Position numbers and translations under genes: made by a program. From NCBI RefSeq assembly GCF_013170705.1, contig NZ_CP033334.1, forward strand, positions 4,875,501 to 4,939,500: a stretch of DNA of 64,000 bases, read 5' to 3'. This DNA is from Mesorhizobium loti. GTDB lineage: Bacteria > Pseudomonadota > Alphaproteobacteria > Rhizobiales > Rhizobiaceae. Under the pieces are notes generated by a model. That model did no database searches. It had not been told where the DNA came from and saw only the letters and a program-made list of their open reading frames with translations. Positions within the stretch are counted from its first letter, which is position 1. Each line of letters starts with the position of its first letter. Positions 7,689-22,798 of the stretch are shown here, one piece after another.

Positions 7689-8084
7689 CTAGGCCGGCGG
7701 AGCGCCCTCATGTTGCGGCAGGTCGTCGTCGAGCAGCACCCAAGGCTGCTTCGACGCGGTGAAAATATGCATCTGCGGCCGGAACAGCGAAGGGTCGTCG
7801 AGCGAGCCCGTGGTGATGCCGATGATGCCGGCCGAGTCGCGCCGCGAAAACATCGTCGTGCCGCAGCTCGGGCAAAAACCGCGCTTGAGATCGGGCGAGG
7901 TGTTGACTGTTGCCAGCGGCCCCTCGACCGTCACATCGTCGATGCGAAACAGCACGCGCGCGTTGAAGGCGGCGCCAATCGCCTTCTGGCAAAGCCGGCA
8001 ATGGCAGATGCGCTCGTTGATGGGAGCCGCCTCGGTGCTGTAACGCACCGCGCCGCACAGGCATCCGCCTTCATACCTTGCCAT
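7689..8084 (-). CDS. GFA/CENP-V family zinc protein
   Basis: A 131-residue protein of the GFA family (glutathione-dependent formaldehyde-activating enzyme-like, CENP-V fold). The zinc-binding cysteines stand in three groups: CLCGAVRY at residues 8-15, CHCRLCQK near 27-34 and FCPSCGTTMF near 70-79. The founding member Gfa was proposed to help form S-hydroxymethylglutathione from formaldehyde and glutathione; most members have no proven reaction. No formaldehyde dehydrogenase lies nearby, so the name should not be taken as function. Confidence 0.9.
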   Translation of the reverse strand: MARYEGGCLCGAVRYSTEAAPINERICHCRLCQKAIGAAFNARVLFRIDDVTVEGPLATVNTSPDLKRGFCPSCGTTMFSRRDSAGIIGITTGSLDDPSLFRPQMHIFTASKQPWVLLDDDLPQHEGAPPA

Positions 8085-8195: not shown

Positions 8196-9224
8196 ATGAC
8201 CCGAGACATCGAAACCATCGGCATTGCGGATCTGTTCGGGCCACCCTCGCCCGCCCGTGACCGCGCCGACGGCCGCATCATGGCCGCGGCCTCGGGAATA
8301 GGCTTCATGGCGGTCCGGGATTTTCCCGGCGACGCCTGGCTGACTCCGGACAGAAGGGCGCAATTGCTACGCATCTTCGCCCTCCCCGACATCGAGAAGC
8401 AGAAATTGCTGCGCTGGAATTTCGATAGCACCAGGAAGAACTTTTATCGCGGCTGGTTCCCCCTCCAGCCGGCAGCCGTGTCCTACAAGGAAGGCATCGA
8501 CATGGGGCCGGACATTGCCGATGCGGCGCGAGTCTCGGTTGTCGACGATCCGCTGTGCGAGCCGACACCCTTGCCGGCCGAAGGCACCTTGCCCGGCTGG
8601 CGCACGGCCGCGGCGGATTACTATCGCGCGATGGAGAGGGTCGGAAACGCGCTTATGTGGTCGATAGCGCGCGGGCTTGGCCTGCCGGAAACGATCTTCG
8701 ATCCGTATTTCGAGCACGGCATCTCGACGTTGCGCCTGATCCGCTATCCCTTGCGCGACGCCACTGCCGGCATCGACACCGGCGGCCCGGAGTTCTCGGT
8801 GGTCCACAAGGGGGAAATACGCACGATCATCGGCCGCGAACATGCCGATTCCGGTTTCGTCACCTTGTTGGCCCAAGATGGCGTCGAAGGCTTGCAGGCA
8901 AAAAACCGCGCCGACGAGTGGATCGACGTGCCGCCGGCCAACGGCACGCTGGCGGTCAATTTCGGCCAGTTGCTGGAACGCTGGACCGGCGGGCGTGTCC
9001 GGGCGACGCGGCATCGGGTGATCGCGCCAAAGACAACTCGGTTTTCGATCCCGTTTTTCTATGAACCGCGCGTCGACGCCGAGATCGCGCCCTTGCCGCT
9101 AAGCGGCGCCGAGCCCTTCGAGCCATTTCTTTACGGCGACTATCTCTGGGAGTCGGCGACGAATTTCGTCGAAATGAGCGGCATCAAGAATCTCAGGCAG
9201 CCGCGCCGCGCCAAGGTTTCCTGA
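8196..9224 (+). CDS. isopenicillin N synthase family 2-oxoglutarate/Fe(II) oxygenase
   Basis: A 342-residue non-haem iron oxygenase of the IPNS-like branch. The iron triad is visible as His216 and Asp218 (REHADSGF) and His273 (ATRHRV), and the co-substrate-binding Arg282-x-Ser284 (TRFSIPFF) follows. The N-terminal non-haem dioxygenase domain covers roughly residues 5-120. Members hydroxylate or otherwise oxidise diverse small molecules using 2-oxoglutarate and O2, so the substrate cannot be told from sequence. The neighbours (GFA protein on the opposite strand, SRPBCC protein) give no pathway. Confidence 0.88.
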   Translation: MTRDIETIGIADLFGPPSPARDRADGRIMAAASGIGFMAVRDFPGDAWLTPDRRAQLLRIFALPDIEKQKLLRWNFDSTRKNFYRGWFPLQPAAVSYKEGIDMGPDIADAARVSVVDDPLCEPTPLPAEGTLPGWRTAAADYYRAMERVGNALMWSIARGLGLPETIFDPYFEHGISTLRLIRYPLRDATAGIDTGGPEFSVVHKGEIRTIIGREHADSGFVTLLAQDGVEGLQAKNRADEWIDVPPANGTLAVNFGQLLERWTGGRVRATRHRVIAPKTTRFSIPFFYEPRVDAEIAPLPLSGAEPFEPFLYGDYLWESATNFVEMSGIKNLRQPRRAKVS

Positions 9225-10315: not shown

Positions 10316-10732
10316 ATGAGTAAATCTCTCGTCACCTTTGTCGGCGTTGCTCATCCCTGGATGTGCGACGTGATGGGACACATGAATGTGCGCCACTACG
10401 CGGCGATGTTCGACGATGCCAGCTTCCAGCTTCTTGGCCACATCGCCGGGCAGGATAGCACCCAGGCCTCGGCAAGGGGATGGGCCGATGTGCGCACCGA
10501 AATCGACTACCGGCACGAGACAAAAGCCGGCTCGCTTCTCACCATCCGCTCGCATGTGGTGAAGATCGGCCGCACCTCCGTCACCTTCGAACAGGTCATG
10601 TCGGGATCGCTCGACGGCATCGTCCATGCATCGAGCCGGACCACCAGCGTACACTTCGACCTTGCCGCGCGTGCCTCGGTGGCGCTGGACGAAGCGATGC
10701 GCGGCCGCGCGGCGACCTTCCTCGTCGAATAG
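10316..10732 (+). CDS. acyl-CoA thioesterase (4HBT hotdog fold)
   Basis: A 138-residue hotdog-fold thioesterase of the 4-hydroxybenzoyl-CoA thioesterase group, hydrolysing acyl-CoA to the free acid and CoA. The catalytic loop reads CDVMGHMNVRHYAAMFDDAS, with the usual Asp and HMN. The middle strand region (GWADVRTEIDYRHETKAGS) also fits. The ATG at 10316 follows a GGAG. It stands alone, converging on the LysR gene, and its acyl substrate is unknown; a role beside the CoA-dependent catabolic operon is possible but unproven. Confidence 0.8.
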   Translation: MSKSLVTFVGVAHPWMCDVMGHMNVRHYAAMFDDASFQLLGHIAGQDSTQASARGWADVRTEIDYRHETKAGSLLTIRSHVVKIGRTSVTFEQVMSGSLDGIVHASSRTTSVHFDLAARASVALDEAMRGRAATFLVE

Positions 10733-10743
10733 GCCTGCGTCGA

Positions 10744-11703
10744 TCAGCCGTTGTAGATGCGCTCGTCCAGCGGCGTCTCGGCGATCAGTGCCTGCAGCCC
10801 CGACAGTAGCGCCTTCTCGGCACGATTCATCGCCTTGTCGGGATTGGTGAGCAGGAAGATGTCGATGGCCGGCGGCGTGTCGTAGGGCGGCAGCCGCCAC
10901 AGCGTGCCGTCGGCCACGTCGCGTCGCGCCACGTGTAGCGGCAGCGGACCAATGCCGAGCCCGGCGACGATCATGCGCCTGACTTCCTCCAGGCTCGAGG
11001 AGACACCGACGACGTCGGCGTTCAGCCGGGCTTCGCTGCGCAACAGGGCGACCGGCCGCAGCGCGTCGGAAATGTGGTCGGTCTGGAAGGATACAGAGGG
11101 CTCGCCGCGCAGATCGGCAAGCTTCAGCCCGGTCTTTCCGTAAAGCCTGTGCTGCGGGCCGCAGAAGAAGCCGAAGAACTCGCGATAGACCATCGCGTAG
11201 TCCAGCGCCGGATCGCGCTGGCTGACAAGGCAGATGCCGAAGGAGGCGCGCCGCTCCCGCACCTGCTTGGCCACTTCCGTGCTTGCCGCGACCGAGATGG
11301 TGATGCTGGCACGCGGATAGTTACGGTGAAACTCCGCCAGCGCCCGATCGAACAGCGGCGAGACGACATGGCTGGCCGTGGCGATCATGACATGGCCGGT
11401 GACATCGTCGCTGATGCCCCGCATCAAGAGTGGCAGTTGCGATATCGAGCCGAACACCTCGACGCTCTGCTCATAGATCAGCCGCCCGACCTCCGTGAGC
11501 TCGAAGCGAGTAGCGTCGCGGTCGACCAGCCGCCTGCCAACCCGATCCTCCAGCCGCCGCAAGGCGTTGCTGACGCTGGGTTGTTTGAGGTTCAGGCGCT
11601 CGGCGGCGCGGGTAATGCTCTTGACTTCCGCGATGACGACGAACGTACGCAGAAGGTTCCAGTCGAGATCCCAGACCAGACGTTCGGGGCGAGGCAAGGC
11701 CAT
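10744..11703 (-). CDS. LysR family transcriptional regulator
   Basis: A 319-residue LysR-type regulator with the N-terminal winged helix-turn-helix at about residues 13-75 (LLRTFVVIAEVKSITRAAER, then LKQPSVSNALRRLE) and a periplasmic-binding-protein-like effector domain (about 100-310). It is transcribed away from the ABC transporter operon at 11840 with 136 bases between them, the classic layout of a LysR regulator controlling the divergent operon. The effector is probably the transported compound or a pathway intermediate. Confidence 0.92.
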   Translation of the reverse strand: MALPRPERLVWDLDWNLLRTFVVIAEVKSITRAAERLNLKQPSVSNALRRLEDRVGRRLVDRDATRFELTEVGRLIYEQSVEVFGSISQLPLLMRGISDDVTGHVMIATASHVVSPLFDRALAEFHRNYPRASITISVAASTEVAKQVRERRASFGICLVSQRDPALDYAMVYREFFGFFCGPQHRLYGKTGLKLADLRGEPSVSFQTDHISDALRPVALLRSEARLNADVVGVSSSLEEVRRMIVAGLGIGPLPLHVARRDVADGTLWRLPPYDTPPAIDIFLLTNPDKAMNRAEKALLSGLQALIAETPLDERIYNG

Positions 11704-11839
11704 TCCTAATATCTATGCTCCTTATTCCCATTATCTATTTGCGCAATGCTGATGCAAAGGCAATCATTGACATCAGGAGAGCGCCCCAACGCCTCCCAAG
11801 AACAAGCCTTCGCGCTCCATCCAGAGGACAGGAATTTAG
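11704..11839. promoter_or_regulatory. divergent control region of the LysR gene and the catabolic operon
   Basis: An AT-rich stretch (about 11708-11750) in a GC-rich setting contains the palindrome TTGCGCAA at 11739-11746 and repeated TATCT/ATCTAT words (11710-11738). This is where the LysR protein should bind; I cannot assign an exact T-N11-A operator by eye. A ribosome binding site (AGGA, 11829-11832) precedes the ATG at 11840. Confidence 0.5.
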
Positions 11840-12622
11840 ATGAACAGGGTATTTTCCGGCATTGCAGTTGCCGCGCTGCTGCTTGCATCGGCCTTCACCG
11901 CCGTTCCGGCCAAGGCCGACGACCTCGAGAAGATCAAGGCGGCGGGCGAATTGAAGATTTCCATGAGTGGGCAGTATCCGCCCTTCAACTTCGTCAACGA
12001 CCAGAACGAGGTCGTCGGCTTCGACGCCGATATCGGCAAAGCCATCGCTGAACGCATCGGCGTCAAGGGCACCATCATCACCACGGCCTGGGATGGCATC
12101 ATCGCCGGCCTGCTCGCCAACAAATACGACACTGTCGTCGGCTCGATGACGATCACGCCCGAGCGAGAGAAAGTGGTCGATTTCGTCGGCCCCTACTACC
12201 ATGCCGGCCGGGCGGTTTTCGTGAGCCAGGATTCCAAGTTGCAGAGCCTCGACGACCTCAAGGGCAAGACGCTTGGCGTGACGCTCGGCGAGACGCATGA
12301 GAAATGGGCGCGCGAACAGGGCGGCTGGGATATCCGCACCTATAAGGGCCTGCCGGAACTGCTGCTCGAACTGAAGGCCGGCCGCGTCGACGCCATCGTC
12401 GTCGACAACATTCCGGTCATGGTCGCCGTCAAGGAAACCGGCGAAAAGGTCCGCAAGCTCGACACACCCAACATCGAGGGCGGCAGCGTCGCCATCGGCA
12501 TCGCCATCCGCAAGGACAATCCGGAACTCAAGGCCGCCATGCAGAAGGCGCTGGACGGGATGTTGGCCGACGGCACCTACGAGAAGATCTCCAAGCAGTG
12601 GGTCGGCAGCGACATCCGCTGA
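11840..12622 (+). CDS. polar amino-acid-type ABC transporter substrate-binding protein
   Basis: A 260-residue periplasmic binding protein of family 3 (polar amino acids). A signal peptide spans residues 1-26 (ending PAKA). The ligand-binding fold shows SGQYPPFNFVNDQNEVVGFD near the N-terminus, DIGKAIAERIG, and the phosphate/carboxylate-contact region GSMTITPEREKVVDF. It is the first gene of the nine-gene operon. A hairpin between it and the permease gene may keep its transcript more abundant. The ligand is presumably an amino acid or similar cationic/zwitterionic compound and sets the substrate of the pathway. Confidence 0.93.
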   Translation: MNRVFSGIAVAALLLASAFTAVPAKADDLEKIKAAGELKISMSGQYPPFNFVNDQNEVVGFDADIGKAIAERIGVKGTIITTAWDGIIAGLLANKYDTVVGSMTITPEREKVVDFVGPYYHAGRAVFVSQDSKLQSLDDLKGKTLGVTLGETHEKWAREQGGWDIRTYKGLPELLLELKAGRVDAIVVDNIPVMVAVKETGEKVRKLDTPNIEGGSVAIGIAIRKDNPELKAAMQKALDGMLADGTYEKISKQWVGSDIR

Positions 12623-12630
12623 TTCTTGCC

Positions 12631-12661
12631 CGGCTCCAGGCGGTGAAACCACCTGGAGCCG
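12631..12661 (+). other. intercistronic hairpin between binding-protein and permease genes
   Basis: Inverted repeat CGGCTCCAGG (12631-12640) and CCTGGAGCCG (12652-12661), extended by GGT/ACC around a GAA loop. There is no T-run after it, so it is not a rho-independent terminator. Hairpins at this place in ABC transporter operons commonly stabilise the upstream mRNA so that more binding protein than permease is made. Confidence 0.65.
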
Positions 12662-12686
12662 ATCGCCACTCCAGCCGAGTCATTCC

Positions 12687-13334
12687 ATGGATTTCGCCTT
12701 GATGAGCCGTGTCTTCCCGTTCTTCGTGGAAGCCGCTTTGGTGACGCTGGAACTGACAGCGCTGGCCCTGGTTCTCGGGCTGGCGGCGGCAGCACTGGCC
12801 GCGGCCGCCAGGATGTCGAGGTCGGCGATCCCGCGCGCCATCGGTACGGCCTATGTCAGCCTGTTTCGCGGCACGCCCTGCCTGATACAACTCTTCGTGC
12901 TCTATTTCGGCGGTCCGCAGATCGGCATCAATCTGGATCCGTTCGCGGCCGGGGTCATCGGGCTTGGTCTCAATATCGGCGCCTATATGGCGGAATCGAT
13001 CCGCGGCGCGGTGACGGCGGTTGACCGCGGTCAGACGGAAGCTGCCCGCACGATCGGCTTCAGCCGCTTCCAGACCTTGCGCAAGGTCGTGCTGCCGCAG
13101 GCCGCCCGGCTGATGATCCGCCCGCTCGGCGTCAACACGGTCGCGCTGTTGAAGGGTTCCGCACTGGTCTCCACCATCTCGGTCGTGGAACTGACCTATA
13201 CCGCCCAGCGCTTCATCGGCTCGACCTACAAGCCGTTCGAGATCTTCGGCGTCGCGGCCCTGCTCTACATGGTCATGGTCTACGCCGTCGCCCGCATCGT
13301 CGACTTGCTCGACAAGCGCTTCGCCATCGTCTGA
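12687..13334 (+). CDS. polar amino-acid-type ABC transporter permease
   Basis: A 215-residue inner-membrane permease with about five transmembrane helices. The cytoplasmic coupling (EAA) loop is clear: EAARTIGFSRFQTLRKVVLP. The N-terminal HisM-type segment reads SLFRGTPCLIQLFVLYFGGP. It pairs with the next gene to make a heterodimeric channel with the ATPase at 14003. It follows the binding protein after 64 bases and precedes the second permease by 12 bases. Confidence 0.92.
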   Translation: MDFALMSRVFPFFVEAALVTLELTALALVLGLAAAALAAAARMSRSAIPRAIGTAYVSLFRGTPCLIQLFVLYFGGPQIGINLDPFAAGVIGLGLNIGAYMAESIRGAVTAVDRGQTEAARTIGFSRFQTLRKVVLPQAARLMIRPLGVNTVALLKGSALVSTISVVELTYTAQRFIGSTYKPFEIFGVAALLYMVMVYAVARIVDLLDKRFAIV

Positions 13335-13346
13335 GAGGGGAGCACG

Positions 13347-14006
13347 ATGCAAGGTTTGGATTTCACCATCATCGCCCCATACTGGGACCTTTTGCTGACG
13401 GGCGCCTGGTGGACCGCGCTGCTTACGGTCTCGGCCGGGGCGCTCAGCTTCATCTTCGGCATCCTGTTCGCCGTCATCGTGCTCTATGCGCCGGCGATCC
13501 TCGCCTACCCCGTTCGTGCCTTCATGTGGCTGTTCATGGGCACGCCGCTGCTGCTGCAGCTTTTCCTGATCTATTTCGGCCTTGTGCAGATCGGCATCGA
13601 CATCCCCGCGCTTGCCGCCGGCATAATCGGGCTTGGCCTGCACTTCGCCGTCTACAATGCCGATGTCATCCGTGCCGGCATCGTGGCGGTCGATCCCGGT
13701 CAGACGGAAGGCGCGCGCAGCATCGGCTTCGGCAAGTGGCAGACGCTGCGCTACGTCGTGATACCGCAGGCCATCCGCAACACGGCGCCGCCGATCGGAA
13801 GCAATTTGATCGCACTGTTGAAGGAGTCCTCCATCGTCTCGGTCATCGGCATCGCCGAGCTTGTCCATTCGGCGCAACTGGCGATCAGCGAAACCTTCCG
13901 CCCGTTCGAGTTCTACATCGCGGCCGCCGCGCTCTATTACATCTTGAACCTTGTGCTCGAGGCGGCCTTGCATCGGTTTGAAAGACATGTGGAGGTTTCC
14001 CGATGA
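13347..14006 (+). CDS. polar amino-acid-type ABC transporter permease (second)
   Basis: A 219-residue permease of the same family as its upstream neighbour, with [20 protein letters not shown] near the N-terminus and the coupling loop [20 protein letters not shown]. Its stop overlaps the ATPase start by four bases (ATGA, 14003-14006), so the two are probably translationally coupled. Together with the preceding permease it would form the membrane channel. Confidence 0.92.
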
Positions 14007-14767
14007 GCACGCAGCGGCCAATGGTCGAGGTTCGCGGCGCGCGCAAATCGTTCGGCGCGGTCGAGGTCCTCAGGGGTATCGACCTGTCGGTGGATCGGGG
14101 GCAGATCGTCGCGATTATCGGACCGAGCGGTTCAGGCAAGAGCACGCTGCTGCGCTCCATCAACCATCTCGAAACCTTGAACGGCGGCGAAGTGTGGCTG
14201 GACGGTGTGCAGGTCAACCAGAAACTGCACGGCCAGGCCTTCGAGCGGCACATCAACAAGGTGCGCCAGCACATGGGCATGGTGTTCCAGCACTTCAACC
14301 TGTTCCCGCACCTGACCGTGATCGAGAACATCACCATGGGGCCAGTGATCCTGAAGGGCATGGCAAAAGGCGAAGCCCGCGCCTTGGCGCATGGCCTCCT
14401 GTCCAAGGTCGGGCTGGCCGAAAAGATCGACGCCTATCCGTCGCGGCTTTCGGGCGGCCAGAAGCAGCGCGTGGCGATTGCGCGCGCGCTGGCCATGCAG
14501 CCCAAGGTGATGCTGTTCGACGAGGCAACCTCGGCCCTCGACCCGGAGTTGGTCGACGAGGTCAACGCGGTGATGAAACAGCTTGCCGCCGAACACATGA
14601 CCATGCTCATCGTAACGCACGAGATGCGCTTTGCCGGCGAGGTGGCCGACAGGGTGCTGTTCATGGACGGCGGCGTGGTGGTCGAGGAAGGCCCGCCGGG
14701 CGAGATCTTTCGCGCTCCCCAGAAGGAACGCACCCGCACCTTCCTCAAGAAATATCTTTCCGCTTGA
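14003..14767 (+). CDS. polar amino-acid-type ABC transporter ATP-binding protein
   Basis: A 254-residue ABC ATPase. Walker A is GPSGSGKST (residues 40-48), the Q-loop region [11 protein letters not shown] follows, the signature is LSGGQKQR (149-156), and Walker B plus D-loop is [12 protein letters not shown] (169-180), then the switch histidine in VTHEM. It belongs to the GlnQ/HisP group that powers amino-acid uptake. It begins inside the end of the upstream permease gene and is followed after eight bases by the first catabolic gene. Confidence 0.95.
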
Positions 14768-14775
14768 GTACGACG

Positions 14776-16416
14776 ATGACCGGATTGCCCACGGAATTTC
14801 CCGATTTTGGACTGACGCCTGAGCAGCGCCGCCACGCGGTGCGCGGCCATTACTACGAATGGCCGGGCATGGATGGCGAGCGCGGCGAGATCTGGTGCTA
14901 TAGCGACCGCTTCTCCTATCGTGCCGGCGAAACGGTGACACTGCATGTCAGCTCCACGGCTCCCTCCTTCGGCATGACCATCGTCCGCGACGGCGGCACC
15001 GAGACAAAGGTGTTCGACAAGTCGGGAATCGCGGCGCGCTGGCAGGACAGCCCGGACCAGTGCTCGGCGGAGGGCTGTGGCTGGGAAGCGTCCTTCGAAT
15101 TTCGTGTCGGCGGCGACTGGCCGTCCGGCGCCTATCGGATAACGCTGAGTGCCGAGGGCCGAGACGGCAAGCCGATCCACAGCCACCACCTTTTCATCGT
15201 CTCCCCCCTGCCCGGCAAGAAGCCCGGCCGCGTGCTGCAAGTGGCGGCGACGGGTACCTGGCTCGCCTACAACACCTGGGGCGGCTCCAACCACTATCAG
15301 GGCATCACCGGGCCGGATCGCGACCAGTACTCGCCCATCGTGTCGACGCAGCGACCCTGGTGCCGTGGCTTCGTCGTGCTGCCGAAGGATGCGCCACGCG
15401 TGCCGCTGGAGGTCGCCGTGCCGCCGAAGACGGTGCCGCGCTACCCCCATATGGAATGGGCGCTTGCCACTGGCCATTCGAAGAAATACGCCTCGTCAGG
15501 CTGGGCAAGCTACGACAGCCACTTCTTCCGTTTTGCCGAACGGGCCGGCTATGAGGTTGACCTCGCCAGCCAGCACGATCTGCATTTCTCGCCCGATATT
15601 CTCGATGGCTATGACTGCGCCGTCTTCGTTGGCCATGACGAGTACTGGACCTGGGAAATGCGCGACGCGGTCGACAGTTACGTCGAACGCGGCGGCCATG
15701 CGGCGCGCTTTGCCGGTAATTTCATGTGGCAGACGCGGCTGGAGGACGAAGGCCGCCGGCAGGTCTGCTACAAATACCGCGCCCGCGCCGAAGACCCGGC
15801 CTATCGCGGCGGCGACGTCACCCGCGCCACCAATTCCTGGGAAGCGCCGGAAATCGGCCGGCCGGGTTCAGCAACCTTCGGGCTCGACGCGACACGCGGC
15901 CTCTATGCCGGCTGGGGCGGTTGCGCGCCGCGCGGCGTGCGCGGCTTTCCGGTCTATCGGCCCGAACACTGGGCGTTTGCCGGCACCGGCATCTATTATG
16001 GCGACCTTCTCGGCGCCGACAGCCATGTCTATGGCTACGAGGTCGACGGGCTCGATTTCGAGATCCGCGGCGGCCTGCCCTACCCTACCGCGACCAGCGG
16101 CGCGCCTGATGGACTGCAGGTTCTCGCCGTCGGCATGGCGTCCCAGGTCGAGGAGAGCGCCGACATCCCGATCGAGGACCAGTTCCTCACAGACGAGGAT
16201 GGCCGTTTCAGCGCCGAGACGCTGTTTGGCGACAGGAGCGACGCCAACCTTGAAAAAGTCAAACGTGGCAACGGCATGATCGTCAACTTCCCGCGCGGCA
16301 AGGGCGAGGTCTTTCATGCCGGAAGCTGCGAATGGGTCGCCGGCCTGCTAAGACAAGACCCGATGGTCGAACGCGTCACCCAGAATGTCCTTGATCGCTA
16401 CCTTGGAAAGTCCTGA
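14776..16416 (+). CDS. N,N-dimethylformamidase large-subunit-like protein
   Basis: A 546-residue protein resembling the large (beta) subunit of N,N-dimethylformamidase, an iron-dependent amidohydrolase splitting dimethylformamide into dimethylamine and formate. An Ig-like beta region (about residues 40-145) is followed by AYNTWGGSNHYQG (164-176) and the family hallmark VGHDEYW (285-291), then GGHAARFAGNFMWQTR. The characterised enzyme has a two-Tyr, one-carboxylate iron site and a small alpha subunit; no small-subunit gene is present here and the protein is shorter than the characterised large subunit of roughly 760 residues. It probably hydrolyses another amide. It sits eight bases after the ABC ATPase and one base before the aminotransferase. 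Confidence 0.8.
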   Translation: MTGLPTEFPDFGLTPEQRRHAVRGHYYEWPGMDGERGEIWCYSDRFSYRAGETVTLHVSSTAPSFGMTIVRDGGTETKVFDKSGIAARWQDSPDQCSAEGCGWEASFEFRVGGDWPSGAYRITLSAEGRDGKPIHSHHLFIVSPLPGKKPGRVLQVAATGTWLAYNTWGGSNHYQGITGPDRDQYSPIVSTQRPWCRGFVVLPKDAPRVPLEVAVPPKTVPRYPHMEWALATGHSKKYASSGWASYDSHFFRFAERAGYEVDLASQHDLHFSPDILDGYDCAVFVGHDEYWTWEMRDAVDSYVERGGHAARFAGNFMWQTRLEDEGRRQVCYKYRARAEDPAYRGGDVTRATNSWEAPEIGRPGSATFGLDATRGLYAGWGGCAPRGVRGFPVYRPEHWAFAGTGIYYGDLLGADSHVYGYEVDGLDFEIRGGLPYPTATSGAPDGLQVLAVGMASQVEESADIPIEDQFLTDEDGRFSAETLFGDRSDANLEKVKRGNGMIVNFPRGKGEVFHAGSCEWVAGLLRQDPMVERVTQNVLDRYLGKS

Positions 16417-16417
16417 C

Positions 16418-17803
16418 ATGTCGAAGTCCCAGACCGCCGCCCAAGCAACCGAGGCGCGCCGAGAATCGCATCTGTTCTACCTCTCCAGCCTGCGCCGGCC
16501 GCTCATCGACCGGGCCGAGGGCATCTACATGTGGACGCAGGACGGCCGCCGTTTCATAGACGGATCGAGCGGGCCGATGGTCGCCAATATCGGCCATTCC
16601 AACCGCAACGTCCTGGACGCCATGAAGCGGCAGATGGACCGTGCCACGTTCGCCTATCGCCTGCACTTCGAAAACGAGCCGGCGGAGGAACTGGCGCGCG
16701 AGCTTGCGGGCAAACTGCCGGAAGGCATGGACCGCATCTTTTTCGTCTCGGGCGGCTCGGAAGCGACGGAATCCTGCATCAAGCTGGCAAGGCAATGGGC
16801 GGTCGCAACCGGCCAGGCCAGCCGCTGGAAGGTGATCACGCGTTTTCCCTCCTATCACGGCGGCACGCTGGGTTCGCTCTCGATCACCGGCGACGATGCG
16901 CTGGCCGAAACCTTTGAGCCGATGATGCGGGTGATGCCGACCGTGCCCGCTCCAACAGCCTGGCGAGACCGCGACAATCTTTCGATGGAGCAACGCGGCG
17001 TCCGCTACGCCGACATGCTGGAGGACAAGATCCTTGCAGAAGGCCCGGAGAGTGTCGTCGCCTTCATCATGGAGCCGATCGGCGGCGCCGCCACCGCCGC
17101 TCTTGTGGCGCCCGACAGCTATTACGCACGCATCCGCGAAATCTGCGACCGCTACGGCATCCTGCTCATCCATGACGAAGTGATGAGCGGCGCCGGCCGC
17201 ACCGGTAAATTCCTCGGCGGCGACCATTGGAACTGCAAGCCCGACATCGTCGCGCTGTCGAAGGGGCTGGGCTCCGGCTATGCGCCGCTCGGCGCGCTGG
17301 CGGCTCCGATGCGGCTGGTGCAGCCGCTGCTCGCTTCGGGCGGGTTCCAGCATGGCCACACCTATGCGGGCAATCCGTTGGCCTGCGCCGCCGGTCTTGC
17401 GGTGCTGGGCGAAATGGACCGCCTCGACCTGATCGCCAATGCCGCTGCCATGGGCGACGTGCTGATGGACGGGCTGAAGGCGCTGGCGAAACGCTTTCCG
17501 TTCATTGCCGACGTGCGCGGCAAGGGCCTGCTGACTGGAGCCGAGATGGTGGCCGATCCGGAGACATTGCGGCCGATCGACCAAGGCAAAAAAGCCACGC
17601 AGCGTCTGCTCGACCTCGCCTATGAGCGCGGGCTGATCATCTATGGCCGCAGGGTCAAGGGCGGCGTCGACGGCGACAATTTCATGGTTGCGCCGCCGAT
17701 GATCGTCACCAGCGAGCAGGTCGGCGAGATCGTCTCCATCATCGGCGACTCGCTGGAGGTTCTGGCTTCCGAGCTCGACCTGCCGGTCGAAGGCCGGGGG
17801 TAA
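16418..17803 (+). CDS. class III (omega) aminotransferase
   Basis: A 461-residue PLP enzyme of aminotransferase class III, the group that moves amino groups from omega-amines, beta-amino acids or diamines to 2-oxo acids. The PLP site shows SGGSEATESCIKLAR (phosphate cup), the ring-binding Asp253 in LLIHDEVMSGAGRTG and the Schiff-base Lys282 in ALSKGLGSGYAPLGA. The start at 16418 has GGAAAG upstream; an in-frame upstream start at 16385 lies inside the previous gene. Placed just before a beta-keto acid cleavage enzyme, it may convert a beta-amino acid to the matching beta-keto acid. Confidence 0.92.
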   Translation: MSKSQTAAQATEARRESHLFYLSSLRRPLIDRAEGIYMWTQDGRRFIDGSSGPMVANIGHSNRNVLDAMKRQMDRATFAYRLHFENEPAEELARELAGKLPEGMDRIFFVSGGSEATESCIKLARQWAVATGQASRWKVITRFPSYHGGTLGSLSITGDDALAETFEPMMRVMPTVPAPTAWRDRDNLSMEQRGVRYADMLEDKILAEGPESVVAFIMEPIGGAATAALVAPDSYYARIREICDRYGILLIHDEVMSGAGRTGKFLGGDHWNCKPDIVALSKGLGSGYAPLGALAAPMRLVQPLLASGGFQHGHTYAGNPLACAAGLAVLGEMDRLDLIANAAAMGDVLMDGLKALAKRFPFIADVRGKGLLTGAEMVADPETLRPIDQGKKATQRLLDLAYERGLIIYGRRVKGGVDGDNFMVAPPMIVTSEQVGEIVSIIGDSLEVLASELDLPVEGRG

Positions 17804-17807
17804 GGAA

Positions 17808-18737
17808 ATGGCGCCGCGAAAAGTCATCATCACCTGCGCCGTCACCGGCTCGGTGCACACGCCGTCGATGTCGCCCTATCTGCCGGTAACGCCGGACCAG
17901 ATCGCGGCCGACGCGATCGCGGCAGCGGGAGCCGGCGCCTCGATCCTGCATCTGCATGCCCGCGACCCCAAGGACGGACGGCCGACGGCCGATCCGGACG
18001 TGTTCATGCAGTTCCTGCCGCGCATCAAGCAGGCAACCGACGCGGTGATCAACATCACCACCGGCGGCTCCTCGTTGATGACACTCGATCAGCGGCTGGA
18101 GGCCCCACTCCGAGCCGAGCCCGAAATGTGCTCGCTCAACATGGGCTCGATGAATTTCGCGCTGTTCCCGATGCTCGACAAGCCACGGGAGTGGCGGCAC
18201 GAGTGGGAGCCAAAGCTGCTCGAAGCCACCCGCGACACCATCTTCAAGAACACATTCGCCGACATGGAGGGCGTGCTCGAGAGGCTGGGCAAGGGCTGCG
18301 GCACGCGCTTCGAATTCGAGTGCTACGATGTCGGCCATCTCTATTCGCTGGCGCATTTCCGCGATCGGGGCCTGGTGTCGGGGCCGCTGTTCATCCAGTT
18401 CGTGCTGGGTATTCTGGGCGGTATCGGCGCCGACCCGGACAATCTCATCCATATGAAGCGGATCGCCGACAAGCTGTTCGGCGACAGCTACCAGTTCTCC
18501 GTGCTGGCCGCGGGCCGCAACCAGATGCCGCTGATCTCGATCGCCGCGGCAATGGGCGGCAATGTCCGAGTCGGGCTGGAGGACAGTCTCTTTGATGGCC
18601 GCCAGCTGGCGAAATCCAATGCCGACCAGGTGCGCCGCATCCGTGGCATTCTCGACGGGCTGTCGCTGGAGGTTGCCACGCCGGCCGAGGCGCGCGACAT
18701 GCTGGCGCTGAAAGGCGGCGACCGGGTGGCGTTTTGA
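17808..18737 (+). CDS. BKACE family beta-keto acid cleavage enzyme (DUF849)
   Basis: A 309-residue TIM-barrel enzyme of the family of 3-keto-5-aminohexanoate cleavage enzyme (Kce), which condenses a beta-keto acid with acetyl-CoA and splits it into acetoacetate and a new acyl-CoA. The zinc motif ILHLHARDP (His48, His50) and the late glutamate motif VRVGLEDSLF are present, as is FECYDVGHLY. Family members differ mainly in side-chain pocket residues and accept charged, polar or hydrophobic beta-keto acids. It follows the aminotransferase by four bases. No lysine-fermentation genes are adjacent. Confidence 0.92.
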   Translation: MAPRKVIITCAVTGSVHTPSMSPYLPVTPDQIAADAIAAAGAGASILHLHARDPKDGRPTADPDVFMQFLPRIKQATDAVINITTGGSSLMTLDQRLEAPLRAEPEMCSLNMGSMNFALFPMLDKPREWRHEWEPKLLEATRDTIFKNTFADMEGVLERLGKGCGTRFEFECYDVGHLYSLAHFRDRGLVSGPLFIQFVLGILGGIGADPDNLIHMKRIADKLFGDSYQFSVLAAGRNQMPLISIAAAMGGNVRVGLEDSLFDGRQLAKSNADQVRRIRGILDGLSLEVATPAEARDMLALKGGDRVAF

Positions 18738-18746
18738 GGCAAGGCC

Positions 18747-19265
18747 GTGACCAATCCAACCCACAGTGACGTCCTGATCCGTCCCGGACGGATCGAAGAC
18801 GCCGAAACCATCCACGCCGCGCTTCTCAAACTCGGTACCCATATCGGCGCGCATCAGGAGATCACGTCCACATCAGACGATCTCCGCCGCTACGGCTTTG
18901 GCGAAAAGCCGGCCTTCTCGACCCTGATTGCCGAAGTTGGCGGCGAGTTCGCCGGCCTCTGCCTGCATTTCCCGATCTTCTCGACCTGGATGGGGCGGCC
19001 CGGCGTCTATGTGCAGGACCTCTATGTCGAGCACCGCTTTCGCGGCCGCAAGATCGGCGAACGGCTGCTACGGCGCGTGGCCGCGGAATGCCGGAAAGAA
19101 GGCGGCGTCTATCTCAGGCTGTCGGTCGACACCGACAATGAAGGTGCCAAGGCCTTCTACGAGAAGCTTGGCATCGCCTGGTCGAGTTACGAACAAACGC
19201 AGAAGATCACCGGCGAAGCCTTCTTTGCCTTCGCCGACGCGCCGGAAAATGGGGGACAGGAATGA
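18747..19265 (+). CDS. GNAT family N-acetyltransferase
   Basis: A 172-residue GNAT protein. The acetyl-CoA loop reads VEHRFRGRKIGERLLRRVAA (V/I-x-x-x-x-R-G-x-G-type signature), preceded by PGVYVQDLYV and followed by DTDNEGAKAFYEKLGI, the usual C-terminal motif. This layout is typical of enzymes that acetylate small amines such as diamines and polyamines. The start is GTG at 18747. Its last four bases overlap the start of the deacetylase gene (ATGA), so acetylating and deacetylating enzymes are made together. Confidence 0.9.
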   Translation: MTNPTHSDVLIRPGRIEDAETIHAALLKLGTHIGAHQEITSTSDDLRRYGFGEKPAFSTLIAEVGGEFAGLCLHFPIFSTWMGRPGVYVQDLYVEHRFRGRKIGERLLRRVAAECRKEGGVYLRLSVDTDNEGAKAFYEKLGIAWSSYEQTQKITGEAFFAFADAPENGGQE

Positions 19266-20290
19266 AAGCTCTTTATGCCGAGGAGCAGAAGCGGCACGAC
19301 CCCAAGGCCTTTCTTTCCAGCGGCGCGCCGCAGCCAAACCCGGAAATGCCCGAGCGCGTCGAGAGATTGTTATCCGGCGCAAGATCTGCCGGCTGCACGA
19401 TCGAGCGGCCGCGCAATCACGGGCTCGGTCCGATTGCCGCCGTGCATACGCCCGAATATCTCGACTTCCTCGAACATATTTTCGAGCGCTGGCAACGAAT
19501 CGACGGCGCGTCCGCCGAAGTGATCCCCAACATCCACCCGATCGCACGTAACGGCTCCTATCCGGCCTCGGCGGTTGGCCAGGCCGGCTACCACATGGCC
19601 GACACAGCCTGCCCGATCTCGGGCGAGACCTGGCAAAGCGCATTGTGGAGCGCCTGGAGCGCGGTCGAAGCCGCTGAAACGGTAATTGCTGGCGCGCCGG
19701 CGGCCTATGCGCTGTGCCGCCCGCCCGGCCATCATGCCTTTGCCGATGTCGCCGGGGGCTTCTGCTTCATCAACAATTCGGCGGTGGCGGCGCAGGTGCT
19801 GCGCAAGCAGGCAGCACGCGTGGCGATCCTCGATGTCGACCTGCACCACGGCAACGGCACGCAGGGCATCTTCTATGCGCGGCCCGATGTGCTCACCGTC
19901 TCGCTGCATGCCGATCCGGTGCGCTTCTACCCGTTCTTCTGGGGTCATGCCGACGAGCGCGGCGAAGGCGCGGGCCTCGGCTACAATTTCAACCTGCCGC
20001 TGCCGCGCAAATCCGCCGACGCGGCGTTTCTGGAAGCGCTGGCGGTGGCCTTCCAGCGTATCCGCGCCTTTTCACCGGATGCGCTGGTGGTGGCGCTTGG
20101 TCTCGACGCCTTCGAGGGCGACCCGTTCGGCGGGCTTTCGGTGACGACGCCCGGCTTCTCACGCATCGGCGAAGCGATCGCAAAGCTTGGCCTGCCGACG
20201 GTCATCGTCCAGGAAGGCGGTTATCTCTGCGACGCGCTTGGCGACAATCTCACCGCCTTCCTCACCGGCTTCGACGGCAAGGCGCGGTGA
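19262..20290 (+). CDS. histone deacetylase/acetylpolyamine amidohydrolase family protein
   Basis: A 342-residue zinc deacetylase of the HDAC superfamily. Catalytic elements are RPPGHHAF (His157, His158), the zinc ligands in ILDVDLHHGNGT (Asp193, His195) and LGLDAFEGDPFGG (Asp282), and the transition-state Tyr321 in QEGGYLC. The loop FYPFFWGHADERGEGAGLGY resembles bacterial acetylpolyamine amidohydrolases, which remove acetyl groups from acetylated diamines and polyamines. Translational coupling to the GNAT gene suggests that it removes the acetyl group added by that enzyme. It ends the operon and converges on the class V aminotransferase-like gene. Confidence 0.92.
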   Translation: MKALYAEEQKRHDPKAFLSSGAPQPNPEMPERVERLLSGARSAGCTIERPRNHGLGPIAAVHTPEYLDFLEHIFERWQRIDGASAEVIPNIHPIARNGSYPASAVGQAGYHMADTACPISGETWQSALWSAWSAVEAAETVIAGAPAAYALCRPPGHHAFADVAGGFCFINNSAVAAQVLRKQAARVAILDVDLHHGNGTQGIFYARPDVLTVSLHADPVRFYPFFWGHADERGEGAGLGYNFNLPLPRKSADAAFLEALAVAFQRIRAFSPDALVVALGLDAFEGDPFGGLSVTTPGFSRIGEAIAKLGLPTVIVQEGGYLCDALGDNLTAFLTGFDGKAR

Positions 20291-20305: not shown

Positions 20306-21583
20306 TCAGGAACGCTGCTGCCTGAGCATGGCGATGACCCGGTGGACGCTCTCCAGCGTCTCGTCGATCTCAGCCGCCGTGTTGTAGTGGGCGATGCCGA
20401 TGCGCACGACGCCCTGTTCGGCTGGAATGCCGAGCTGGTGGACGATCTCCCAGGCGTAGTTGTGGCCCGACCACAGGAAGATGTTCTCGGCATTCATCTG
20501 CCGCACGATCGTCTCCGGTACGATGCCGTCGACGGTGAACGAAACCGTCGGCACACGATCGCCGAGCCGCTTCGGATCGGTGATGCCATGGATCGTCAGG
20601 CCCGAAATGCCGGACAGGCCATCGATCAGTCTTTGTGCCAGCGGGTTTTCATAGGCGATGGAAACTTCGAACGCCTTGGCGATCTTTTGCCTGCGCGAAC
20701 CAGTCTCGCCCACCGCCGCGCCCAGCCCGGCAAAATGATCGACCGCCGCCGTGAGGCCGGCCATCAACTCGATCTGCGGCGTGCCAAGCTCGAATCGCTC
20801 CGGCAGGCCGTTGGACGAACAGCGGCATTTGTAGGGTTTCAGGCCTTCGATGACGTCCAGCCTGCCCCACAATATACCCATATGCGGGCCGAAGAATTTG
20901 TAGGCCGAGCAGATCAGAAAATCGCAGCCGAGGTGCTGCACGTCGATCAGGCCATGCGGCGCGAACTGCACGGCGTCGACATAGACCAGGGCGCCGGCTT
21001 GCTTTGCGATGGCAGTGAGCGACCTGACCCGGTTGATCGAGCCGGTCAGGTTGCTGGCGTAGTTCAATGCGACCAGCCGTGTCTTGTCGGAGAGCAGACC
21101 AGCCAGGGCCGCCTCTTCGACCTGCCAGCTCTGTTCATCGAATGGCAGCCAGCGCACGACGAGGCCAAGGTCCTCGGCCAGTTGCAGCCAGGGCGAGACA
21201 TTGCCCTCGTGATCCATGCGGGTGAGGATGATCTCGTCGCCGGGCTTCAGTGAGCGGCCGAGCGTGCGCGACATATGATAGGTCAGCGTCGTCATGTTGG
21301 CGCCGATGATGATTTCCTCGGGGCTCGCGGCGCCAAGGAAATCGGCCATCGCCTGATGCGCCTCGTCGACCACGGCCTGGGCGGCGACCGTCGTTTCGAA
21401 ATAGCCGCCGAGATTGGCATTGGTCGTGAGCAGGCAGCGCGATACCGCATCGGCGACGGCCTGGGGTACCTGCGTGCCGGCCGGGTTGTCGAGATAGATG
21501 CGGCGGCGTCCCTTGTCGCTCAGGGAAAGAGCGGGGAACTTTCCACGCACGGCCTCTATCGGAAAATCCACCATCGTCTCCAC
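20306..21583 (-). CDS. cysteine desulfurase-like class V aminotransferase
   Basis: A 425-residue PLP protein of the cysteine desulfurase-like group of class V aminotransferases. Visible marks are RRIYLDNPAGTQVP at the N-terminus, the cofactor contacts MDHEGNVSPW and VYVDAVQFAPH, and the Schiff-base lysine in CSAYKFFGPHMG. Members of this subgroup are often named for cysteine desulfuration or selenocysteine lyase without proof. It is on the strand opposite the catabolic operon, with its 3' end 16 bases from that of the deacetylase gene. The start could also be three codons inside (MVDFP). Confidence 0.85.
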   Translation of the reverse strand: METMVDFPIEAVRGKFPALSLSDKGRRRIYLDNPAGTQVPQAVADAVSRCLLTTNANLGGYFETTVAAQAVVDEAHQAMADFLGAASPEEIIIGANMTTLTYHMSRTLGRSLKPGDEIILTRMDHEGNVSPWLQLAEDLGLVVRWLPFDEQSWQVEEAALAGLLSDKTRLVALNYASNLTGSINRVRSLTAIAKQAGALVYVDAVQFAPHGLIDVQHLGCDFLICSAYKFFGPHMGILWGRLDVIEGLKPYKCRCSSNGLPERFELGTPQIELMAGLTAAVDHFAGLGAAVGETGSRRQKIAKAFEVSIAYENPLAQRLIDGLSGISGLTIHGITDPKRLGDRVPTVSFTVDGIVPETIVRQMNAENIFLWSGHNYAWEIVHQLGIPAEQGVVRIGIAHYNTAAEIDETLESVHRVIAMLRQQRS

Positions 21584-21619: not shown

Positions 21620-22687
21620 TCAGGGACAGGGATTGCCGACCCGCTGATGAACCGCATCCACCGCCTTTTGCATCTCTTCGGTCCAGACAACATCCACCGA
21701 CGACAATGCCATTTCGAGTTGCGAAAGGGTTGTCGCGCCAATGATATTCGACGTGACGAAGGGCCGGCTCGAGACATAGGCGTTGGCGAACAGGGCCGGC
21801 TCAAGGCCAAAGGAGCGCGCCAGCTCATTGTATTCGAGCAGCACCGCGGCGGCATTCGGTGTCTCGTAGCGCTGGCCGCGATTGAACAGCTGCGAGCGTG
21901 AGCCCTGCGGGCGGGCGCCATGGTCGTATTTGCCGGTCAGATAGCCTTGCGCCAGCGGCGAATAGGCAAGCAATGAGACGTCTTCGCGCTCGCAGACCTC
22001 GGCGAGGTTCACCTCGAAGGTGCGGTTGACGAGATTGTAGGCGTTCTGGATTGAGTCCACGCGCGGGCCGATCCCCTTGTCGGCCTCTGAGAGGTAACGC
22101 ATGACGCCCCAGGAACTTTCGTTCGACAGGCCGATGTGGCGGATCTTTCCTACCTTCACCAATTCATCGAAAACGCCAAGCGTCTCGGCGATCGGCGTTT
22201 TGTTGGCCGGTGCGCCGTCGGCATCGGCGCGCCGCGCCACCGCCCCGACACGCGTCGGGTTGGCGCCCCAGGGGATGTCCCGTTCCGGCCAGTGGATCTG
22301 GTAGAGATCGAGATAGTCGGTGCCGAGCTTGGCCAGCGACTTGTCGATGGCGTCAAGAATATCGGCGCGCACCAGTTGCGACGGCCTGTCGCCGCGAAAC
22401 CATTTATTGGCCGTGCGACCGACGACCTTGGAGGCCAGGATCACCTTGTCGCGGTTGCCCTTGGCCTTCATCCAGCTGCCGATGATCTTTTCCGTCCGCC
22501 CCTGCGTCTCCGCCTTGGGCGGGATCGGATAGAGCTCGGCGGTGTCGATGAAATTGACGCCGCGCGAAAAAGCCAAATCCATCTGGGCGTGGCCCTCGGC
22601 TTCGGTGTTCTGCTGGCCCCAGGTCATCGAACCAAGGCAGATCTGGGTAACAAGAAGATCGGTCCGACCGAGACGGCGTTTGTGCAT
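21620..22687 (-). CDS. aldo/keto reductase (Tas-like)
   Basis: A 355-residue NADPH-dependent aldo/keto reductase, TIM barrel. It shows RLGRTDLLVTQICLGSMTWG at the N-terminus, the catalytic Asp/Tyr in FIDTAELYP, and the strands DYLDLYQIHWP and IRHIGLSNES. Length and motifs fit the Tas/YghZ-like group rather than short AKRs. The start at 22687 is set by GGAG upstream; the frame extends 14 codons further without support. It lies 36 bases downstream of the class V gene's start on the same strand, so the two may be co-transcribed. Confidence 0.9.
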   Translation of the reverse strand: MHKRRLGRTDLLVTQICLGSMTWGQQNTEAEGHAQMDLAFSRGVNFIDTAELYPIPPKAETQGRTEKIIGSWMKAKGNRDKVILASKVVGRTANKWFRGDRPSQLVRADILDAIDKSLAKLGTDYLDLYQIHWPERDIPWGANPTRVGAVARRADADGAPANKTPIAETLGVFDELVKVGKIRHIGLSNESSWGVMRYLSEADKGIGPRVDSIQNAYNLVNRTFEVNLAEVCEREDVSLLAYSPLAQGYLTGKYDHGARPQGSRSQLFNRGQRYETPNAAAVLLEYNELARSFGLEPALFANAYVSSRPFVTSNIIGATTLSQLEMALSSVDVVWTEEMQKAVDAVHQRVGNPCP

Positions 22688-22798
22688 GAAATTCTGCTCC
22701 GGAGGGAAAGCGTGCGCGGGAGGCTGCATCTATAGGGAAAGCGACGGCGCTCTCCAAGCCTCGCCAGGCCGACTTTTGCGTGAACCAGCGCTGGTTGA

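Follow-up and report, generated by a model that had tools for sequence, protein, structure and literature searches.

Beta-amino acids occur in antibiotics, in osmolytes and in a modified translation factor, and to our knowledge the aerobic routes of their breakdown are little worked out. The classical cleavage of a beta-keto acid uses a coenzyme A (CoA)-transferase and a thiolase, and the beta-keto acid cleavage enzymes (BKACE) do the same in one step. In carnitine catabolism, a dehydrogenase makes 3-dehydrocarnitine, on which a BKACE and then a betainyl-CoA thioesterase act. The kamA/yod locus of Bacillus carries a class III aminotransferase, a CoA-transferase pair and an ArgE/DapE deacylase, and an acetyltransferase is also present. 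Here we analyze a nine-gene operon on a 64,000-nucleotide stretch of Mesorhizobium loti (contig NZ_CP033334.1, positions 4,875,501 to 4,939,500; the whole stretch is called the window). We suggest that this LysR-controlled operon serves to import and degrade an N-acylated beta-amino acid; our confidence, which is moderate, applies to a beta-amino-acid route in general.

The operon would share with carnitine catabolism a beta-keto acid, its cleavage by BKACE with acetyl-CoA and a thioesterase release, whereas it would use a transaminase instead of a dehydrogenase and adds an acylase, a GNAT N-acetyltransferase and a deacetylase of the histone deacetylase (HDAC) family. CoA-transferase-type relatives of the operon carry much the same gene list as kamA/yod; however, the window carries BKACE instead of CoA-transferase and HDAC instead of ArgE/DapE, and a search of the tabulated loci with the KamA-family protein of the genome itself as the sole query (E <= 1e-9) revealed no lysine 2,3-aminomutase up to about 9 kb from the aminotransferase. 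Because the nine genes include no keto-acid dehydrogenase and no aminomutase was found, the operon is, on present evidence, a member of neither system, and we rate it as a new variant of the known BKACE pathways. A kam locus has been reported from B. thuringiensis (PMC4428206), and the functions of KamA and YodT of B. subtilis are given as open (PMC6522883). No description of the window operon was found among the matches listed in a search limited to open-licence papers.

Results

The nine plus-strand genes at 11840-20290 encode a four-gene PAAT-type amino-acid importer, a DMFA2_C hydrolase, a class III aminotransferase, a BKACE, a GNAT and an HDAC. Pfam matches above cut-off were SBP_bac_3, BPD_transp_1 (twice), ABC_tran, DMFA2_C, Aminotran_3, BKACE, Acetyltransf_1 and Hist_deacetyl.

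The comparison that carries our reading was anchored on the aminotransferase (16418-17803, +; start taken as the ATG at 16418; PF00202, 309 bits). Matches were obtained in 29 of 385 genomes drawn from the class (E <= 1e-120), in 34 of 297 drawn from the order (E <= 1e-150) and in 1960 plasmid records, ten of the 25 listed plasmid matches being included; among the listed plasmid matches of more than 60% identity, H2, H4, H5, H7, H10, H12, H13 and H15 were left out, as were four same-genus matches (G069, G105, G136, G209). The resulting table holds 59 loci with a lowest identity of 56%, and counts are given for the 51 that have at least 5 kb downstream. S. medicae L163 entered the table through its own aminotransferase as the query and is excluded from the 51 loci, the tree and the genus count. 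L161 (53%), L167 (33%), L171 and L172 (47-48%) and L223-L231 (47-55%) stand outside the table, as do the HDAC matches L162 and L173 and the hydrolase matches L164, L166 and L174.

BKACE and CoA-transferase exclude each other around the aminotransferase. A BKACE is present in 34 of the 51 loci, a CoA-transferase pair in 12 (10 of them with a thiolase) and neither in five, one of which (L156) bears a BKACE remnant; no locus has both, and 46/51 have either BKACE or its CoA-transferase substitute. With kinship ignored, the chance of zero overlap comes to 4e-8 when loci are counted and to 9e-4 when genera are counted (30 genera; a genus may appear twice because codes and NCBI names could not be matched). 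Mapping the CoA-transferase on the aminotransferase tree takes three changes, at least two of them forced by well-supported branches. Since BKACE is displaced by the CoA-transferase, mostly with thiolase, and both cut beta-keto acids, the aminotransferase would deliver a beta-keto acid, and its substrate would therefore be a beta-amino acid. Beta-keto acid cleavage as the predicted middle step of the pathway is supported by this comparison. A first-pass annotation of the window, made from its sequence alone, had proposed that the BKACE receives its beta-keto acid from the aminotransferase; the displacement supports this, as does a beta-transaminase-family enzyme in the corresponding slot of S. 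medicae L163.

Three main layouts were recognized, and mixtures also occur. The first has a PAAT importer and BKACE as in the window (9/51), the second BKACE and HDAC next to an importer of the PotABCD type, frequently along with a DauA-like flavin adenine dinucleotide (FAD) dehydrogenase (16/51), and the third a PAAT importer with 3-oxoacid CoA-transferase A/B, mostly with an ArgE/DapE deacylase and a thiolase (10/51). The deacylases were HDAC alone in 31 loci, ArgE/DapE alone in 14, both in one and neither in five. Examples of the DauA-like genes are L212:6252-7358, L213:5762-6862 and L219:7092-8228; the L212 protein, the only one compared, has D-arginine dehydrogenase as its nearest match (302 bits). 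In L159 and L160, the aminotransferase is accompanied by genes for an alanine racemase family protein and an M20-type amidohydrolase. Among the 13 loci below 56% identity, a BKACE was found near the aminotransferase only in L172, where it is 28% identical and lies 6 kb away in a group of pca genes. Outside the table, an Azospirillum plasmid (L173:660-13124) carries LysR, ArgE/DapE, a peptide-type importer, a Zn-hydrolase, HDAC and a 66% identical BKACE, and in L174 a CoA-transferase, a thiolase and a PAAT-type importer lie near broken copies of the hydrolase.

The aminotransferase is a probable beta-amino-acid transaminase, as judged from the gene displacement and from the enzyme in its slot in S. 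medicae. Its nearest models are PRK07483 (424 bits) and PRK06917 (417 bits), both below cut-off. S. medicae L163 has a similar gene set, and the nearest solved relatives of its slot enzyme are beta-amino-acid transaminases (436 bits on 2yku, the Mesorhizobium sp. LUK beta-transaminase). The window enzyme, unlike this family, belongs to another branch of class III (PRK07483/PRK06917-like): neither 2yku nor 4ao9 was among the 60 listed of its 193 structure matches, and it is not close to their family (24% identity to the S. medicae member). In other Alphaproteobacteria, a full-length (724-726 residues) gene resembling dimethylformamidase (DMFase) and acylase lies near a 49-53% identical aminotransferase (L161:11925-14105, L231:10620-12794); these are perhaps further pairs of beta-amino-acid acylase and transaminase.

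The BKACE (17808-18737, +) scored 352.6 bits on PF05853 (cut-off 24.8) and 519.3 bits on NF053538 (cut-off 430), and the 6.87-Mb genome has five BKACE matches above the family cut-off. A close solved relative is BKACE15 (8rio, 393 bits), with two uncharacterized entries scoring higher. Both BKACE15, whose substrates are short neutral keto acids and whose physiological role is given as unknown (PMC11961710), and the triacetate acetoacetate-lyase CsTAL, which serves the anaerobic phloroglucinol route (PMC10470551), are family members for neutral keto acids. The same family includes Kce of lysine fermentation (2y7d family), in which Glu14 binds the free 5-amino group (PMC10470551). In contrast to Kce, no aminomutase was found beside the aminotransferase in the tabulated loci, and the Kce motif TGAE aligns, via 3lot and a paralogue from the same genome, with TGSV in the window, so that Val16 stands at the Glu14 position; CsTAL also lacks this glutamate and has Trp16 there (PMC10470551). 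Because Val16 replaces the amine-binding residue, a free cationic side chain on the substrate is unlikely, and an acetylated or neutral side chain would fit.

The hydrolase (14776-16416, +; DMFA2_C domain) was given the ATG start at 14776, which yields 546 residues, a length common among its relatives, rather than the mechanical TTG at 13951. Among 7998 scored candidates, 2868 matched it at E <= 0.001. Searching the PDB by sequence gave no match to the hydrolase. A first structure model was too poor (predicted local distance difference test, pLDDT, 64), and a broader alignment gave a pLDDT of 95. When this model was compared with 1000 chains, N-acetyl-(R)-beta-phenylalanine acylase (8i59, 8huy, 8i5a) and DMFase (6lvb) fitted far best; the hydrolase shares their fold, but they are longer (723-762 residues) and 23-24% identical. 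The iron site of DMFase consists of Y399, Y440 and E521, with H519, N547 and E657 (PMC7686228). As judged from residue numbers, hydrolase H287, E289 and N315 are spaced like H519, E521 and N547, and the offsets of Y165 and E422 would make them the counterparts of Y399 and E657; none was assigned to Y440. Y165, H287, E289, N315 and E422 are invariant in 86 aligned sequences, the window included. No gene for a DMFase small subunit is among the nine operon genes, the only place considered. The fold suggests that the hydrolase is a probable N-acyl-beta-amino-acid acylase, in keeping with the earlier idea that it may release the substrate from an amide.

The GNAT (18747-19265, +) probably targets a distal amine, as its nearest named solved relatives suggest: the best is thialysine acetyltransferase 12jc (67.7 bits), followed by diamine acetyltransferase 2 (53 bits), with ornithine-N5 acetyltransferases among lower matches that range down to 31 bits. 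For each of the 10 NCBIfam families listed, its score falls short of the cut-off. The HDAC (19262-20290, +; PF00850, 254 bits) is of acetylpolyamine type, its nearest solved relative being acetylpolyamine aminohydrolase 3men (348 bits). Its motifs DVDLHHG, GLDAFEGDP and QEGGY, starting at residues 191, 280 and 317, contain what we take to be the Zn ligands and the catalytic tyrosine of the domain. These relatives agree with the first-pass proposal that both proteins act on a distal amine, and the two would fit a diamino acid that bears an acetyl group on its distal amine during the pathway and loses it in the last step, as that annotation also proposed.

A 4HBT_2 thioesterase (10316-10732, +; PF13279, 61 bits) behind the LysR gene had been missing from the first gene list. 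It weakly matches (33 bits) carnitine 3-dehydrogenase NF005716 over the C-terminal part of that protein, a thioesterase domain. A thioesterase gene is the same-strand neighbor after HDAC in L138 and adjoins LysR in Shinella (L157, L170). The enzyme probably hydrolyzes the acyl-CoA that BKACE would make.

A second set of loci was anchored on the hydrolase and comprised the best 80 of 416 relatives, most titled Mesorhizobium; 75 of these named loci have more than 6.5 kb downstream. Aminotransferase, GNAT and HDAC are each present in 75/75 at more than 55% identity, with the gene order kept in the loci mapped. BKACE was found in 47/75 loci with enough downstream sequence, and the importer in 17/75 with enough upstream sequence. 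The 71 complete loci divide into 16 with importer and BKACE, 30 with BKACE alone, 25 with neither and none with importer but without BKACE. The idea that the nine genes form one conserved unit finds no support in that form: in these loci the hydrolase is always accompanied by aminotransferase, GNAT and HDAC, and the importer and BKACE are variable. Rhizobium sp. CB3171 has a 133-residue remnant at the BKACE position (PF05853, 40 bits). On an Ensifer plasmid (L169), all the genes are present in the order of the window, thioesterase and LysR included.

Two features inside these operons stand apart. In some Mesorhizobium operons, a 2-thiouracil desulfurase family gene (PF04463) lies between BKACE and GNAT (L006:13983-14513, tested for the family; L054:13955-14509, assigned through a similar protein start). 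In 11 named loci (L025, L038, L047, L048, L050, L054, L055, L059, L065, L071, L074), the aminotransferase is 67-71% identical to that of the window versus 89-94% for the hydrolase, for which we propose replacement or fast change of one gene.

The importer consists of a periplasmic binding protein (11840-12622, +; PF00497), which has glutamine, ancestral and nopaline binding proteins among its nearest solved structures, two permeases (12687-13334 and 13347-14006, both +; PF00528, and TIGR01726 over cut-off) and an ATPase (14003-14767, +; PF00005; 333 bits on the EhuA model, just below the cut-off of 345). Gap lengths from the coordinates are 64 nucleotides (nt) between binding protein and permease 1, 12 nt between the permeases, 8 nt from ATPase to hydrolase, 1 nt from hydrolase to aminotransferase, 4 nt from aminotransferase to BKACE and 9 nt from BKACE to GNAT; permease 2 and ATPase, and GNAT and HDAC, overlap by 4 nt (ATGA). 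The divergent LysR-type regulator (10744-11703, -; PF00126, PF03466) adjoins most importer-bearing loci of the aminotransferase-anchored set. Open reading frames, Pfam matches and gap lengths thus confirm the nine tightly spaced genes and divergent LysR of the first-pass annotation, as well as its hairpin in the largest gap (12623-12686, +), which folds strongly at -28.5 kcal/mol, better than every one of 200 shuffled sequences (-16.7, standard deviation 2.9; z -4.1). The region between LysR and the binding-protein gene (11704-11839) is the presumed promoter/operator and contains a block, about 11712-11748, that is conserved across an alignment of 17 such regions, the window included. Scans for sigma-70 promoters and for terminators gave results no better than shuffled sequence.

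Convergent after the operon are genes for a class V aminotransferase (20306-21583, -) and an aldo/keto reductase (21620-22729, -), present in 75/75 and 74/75 named loci, with or without importer and BKACE. They were considered as pathway members and set aside: they lie on the opposite strand, and near L159 there is a class V gene that is dissimilar. They look like neighbors belonging to the chromosomal site, which seems stable while modules come and go. Upstream of the operon lie a 2OG-Fe(II) oxygenase gene (8196-9224, +), which recurs upstream in many named loci, and a gene for a GFA-family protein (7689-8084, -).

Discussion

We propose that the PAAT importer would take up an N-acylated beta-amino acid, that the DMFase-fold acylase would free the beta-amine and that the GNAT would acetylate the distal amine. 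The class III aminotransferase would then convert the beta-amino acid to a beta-keto acid, from which BKACE and acetyl-CoA would produce acetoacetate and an acyl-CoA two carbons shorter. Finally, the 4HBT thioesterase would release the acid, and the HDAC would strip the N-acetyl group to leave an omega-amino acid. Gene displacement supports the transamination and cleavage steps, and the fold supports the acylase step; uptake, acetylation, thioester hydrolysis and deacetylation are suggested by family and context. Most likely, the beta-amino acid carries a second, distal amine.

Several observations weigh against this proposal. The GNAT was found in only 25/51 loci, in a search with four queries at E <= 1e-9 that may have missed some GNAT genes, and its structure matches are weak, none exceeding 68 bits. 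In L207-L210, importer, hydrolase, aminotransferase and BKACE were found with neither a GNAT nor a deacetylase such as HDAC. The acetylation and deacetylation pair of the first-pass annotation is not obligatory, given the GNAT count and the five of 51 loci with neither HDAC nor ArgE/DapE. HDAC and ArgE/DapE occur together in L222, and also in L162 and L173 outside the table; in L173, HDAC and BKACE were found with no class III aminotransferase found. L239 and L241 have aminotransferase and HDAC without BKACE or CoA-transferase, and the CoA-transferase pair of L229 (aminotransferase 50%) is 6.4 kb off. As many as 28/75 named loci lack BKACE yet keep hydrolase, aminotransferase, GNAT and HDAC; in the 13 of these genomes that were searched, the closest BKACE at any other site has only 58-62% identity, compared with a best match of 95-97% in five genomes whose operon has it. 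Only 3/20 hydrolase-anchored loci L136-L155 have a close aminotransferase; in the other 17, the hydrolase is 34-60% identical, except in L139 (74%, short contig). The acylase and DMFase fold matches are tied (Z within 1), and the window and S. medicae aminotransferases share only 24% identity (over 328 residues, 60 bits). DauA-like dehydrogenases in 15/51 loci (12 with a PotABCD-type importer) and the racemase of L159 and L160 are unexplained; possibly they handle enantiomers.

An unlikely alternative substrate is a simple beta-amino acid that lacks a distal amine, such as beta-alanine, beta-aminoisobutyrate, beta-aminobutyrate or their N-acyl forms, with the HDAC and the DMFase-like protein as alternative beta-amine N-deacylases and the GNAT as an accessory. 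In its favor are the GNAT count of 25/51 and L239, where a dihydropyrimidinase gene (615 bits on TIGR02033, cut-off 393) and one for a hydantoinase/carbamoylase-family amidase (432 bits on TIGR01879, cut-off 204) lie about 5 kb upstream of aminotransferase and HDAC on the same strand, which would suit plain beta-alanine; BKACE15 also accepts short neutral keto acids (PMC11961710). However, the relatives of GNAT and HDAC work on distal alkyl amines, and malonate semialdehyde from beta-alanine should need no CoA-transferase and thiolase, which are the replacements of BKACE.

Catabolism of acetylpolyamines or acetyl-diamines is quite improbable. Here the HDAC would deacetylate an imported N-acetyl amine, the aminotransferase would oxidize a terminal amine and BKACE would handle a downstream by-product, which accords with the HDAC being nearest to acetylpolyamine aminohydrolase and with PotABCD-type importers in 17/51 loci (the one binding protein scanned, from L213, is a weak PotD match, 43 bits). 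The aldehyde expected from omega-transamination, however, has no aldehyde dehydrogenase among the nine genes, and the CoA-transferase/thiolase swap, together with the beta-transaminase in the slot, points to a beta-keto acid; because of this swap, transamination of a simple omega-amine or polyamine is not favored. That importer, BKACE and the hydrolase-aminotransferase-GNAT-HDAC block are chance neighbors, with BKACE acting on an unrelated keto acid, is hardly probable: the importer and BKACE counts in the named loci would allow it, but a cutter accompanies the aminotransferase in 46/51 loci, and all 16 importer-bearing complete named loci have BKACE.

For the N-acylated beta-amino acid that we prefer as substrate, a basic, beta-lysine-like compound is a tentative possibility, and N-epsilon-acetyl-beta-lysine, the possible case named in the first-pass annotation, is a conjecture. 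Beta-lysine as the start would end in 4-aminobutyrate, and it is one candidate among several; it is a guess, since the tabulated loci yielded no lysine 2,3-aminomutase next to the aminotransferase. Such an enzyme is not favored as the substrate source, as the KamA-family gene of the genome itself is 1.5 Mb away and its kind is unsettled: a 313-residue piece of its 391-residue frame scores above the family cut-off and below the lysine aminomutase and EpmB cut-offs.

Similar gene sets in other bacteria rely on either of two interchangeable cutting machines and point to a probably widespread, as yet undescribed route. More doubtful is its fuller form, an alphaproteobacterial aerobic route that handles N-acylated beta-amino acids of basic character, for instance beta-lysine or its amides, by means of two exchanged, chemically different cutters, the DMFase-fold acylase, temporary distal acetylation and HDAC or ArgE/DapE as largely matching exchanged deacylases. 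It would be the importing counterpart of Bacillus kamA/yod, with DauA-like dehydrogenases or racemases for the other enantiomer.

Through the displacement pattern, genes with labels as vague as "DMFase-like", "aspartate aminotransferase family" or "histone deacetylase family" become a pathway whose order can be tested. It offers a comparison for Bacillus kamA and yodT, whose roles are given as open (PMC6522883). Moreover, it provides a candidate function for one branch of PF20254 proteins and assayable predictions for BKACE, HDAC and GNAT proteins of unknown substrate.

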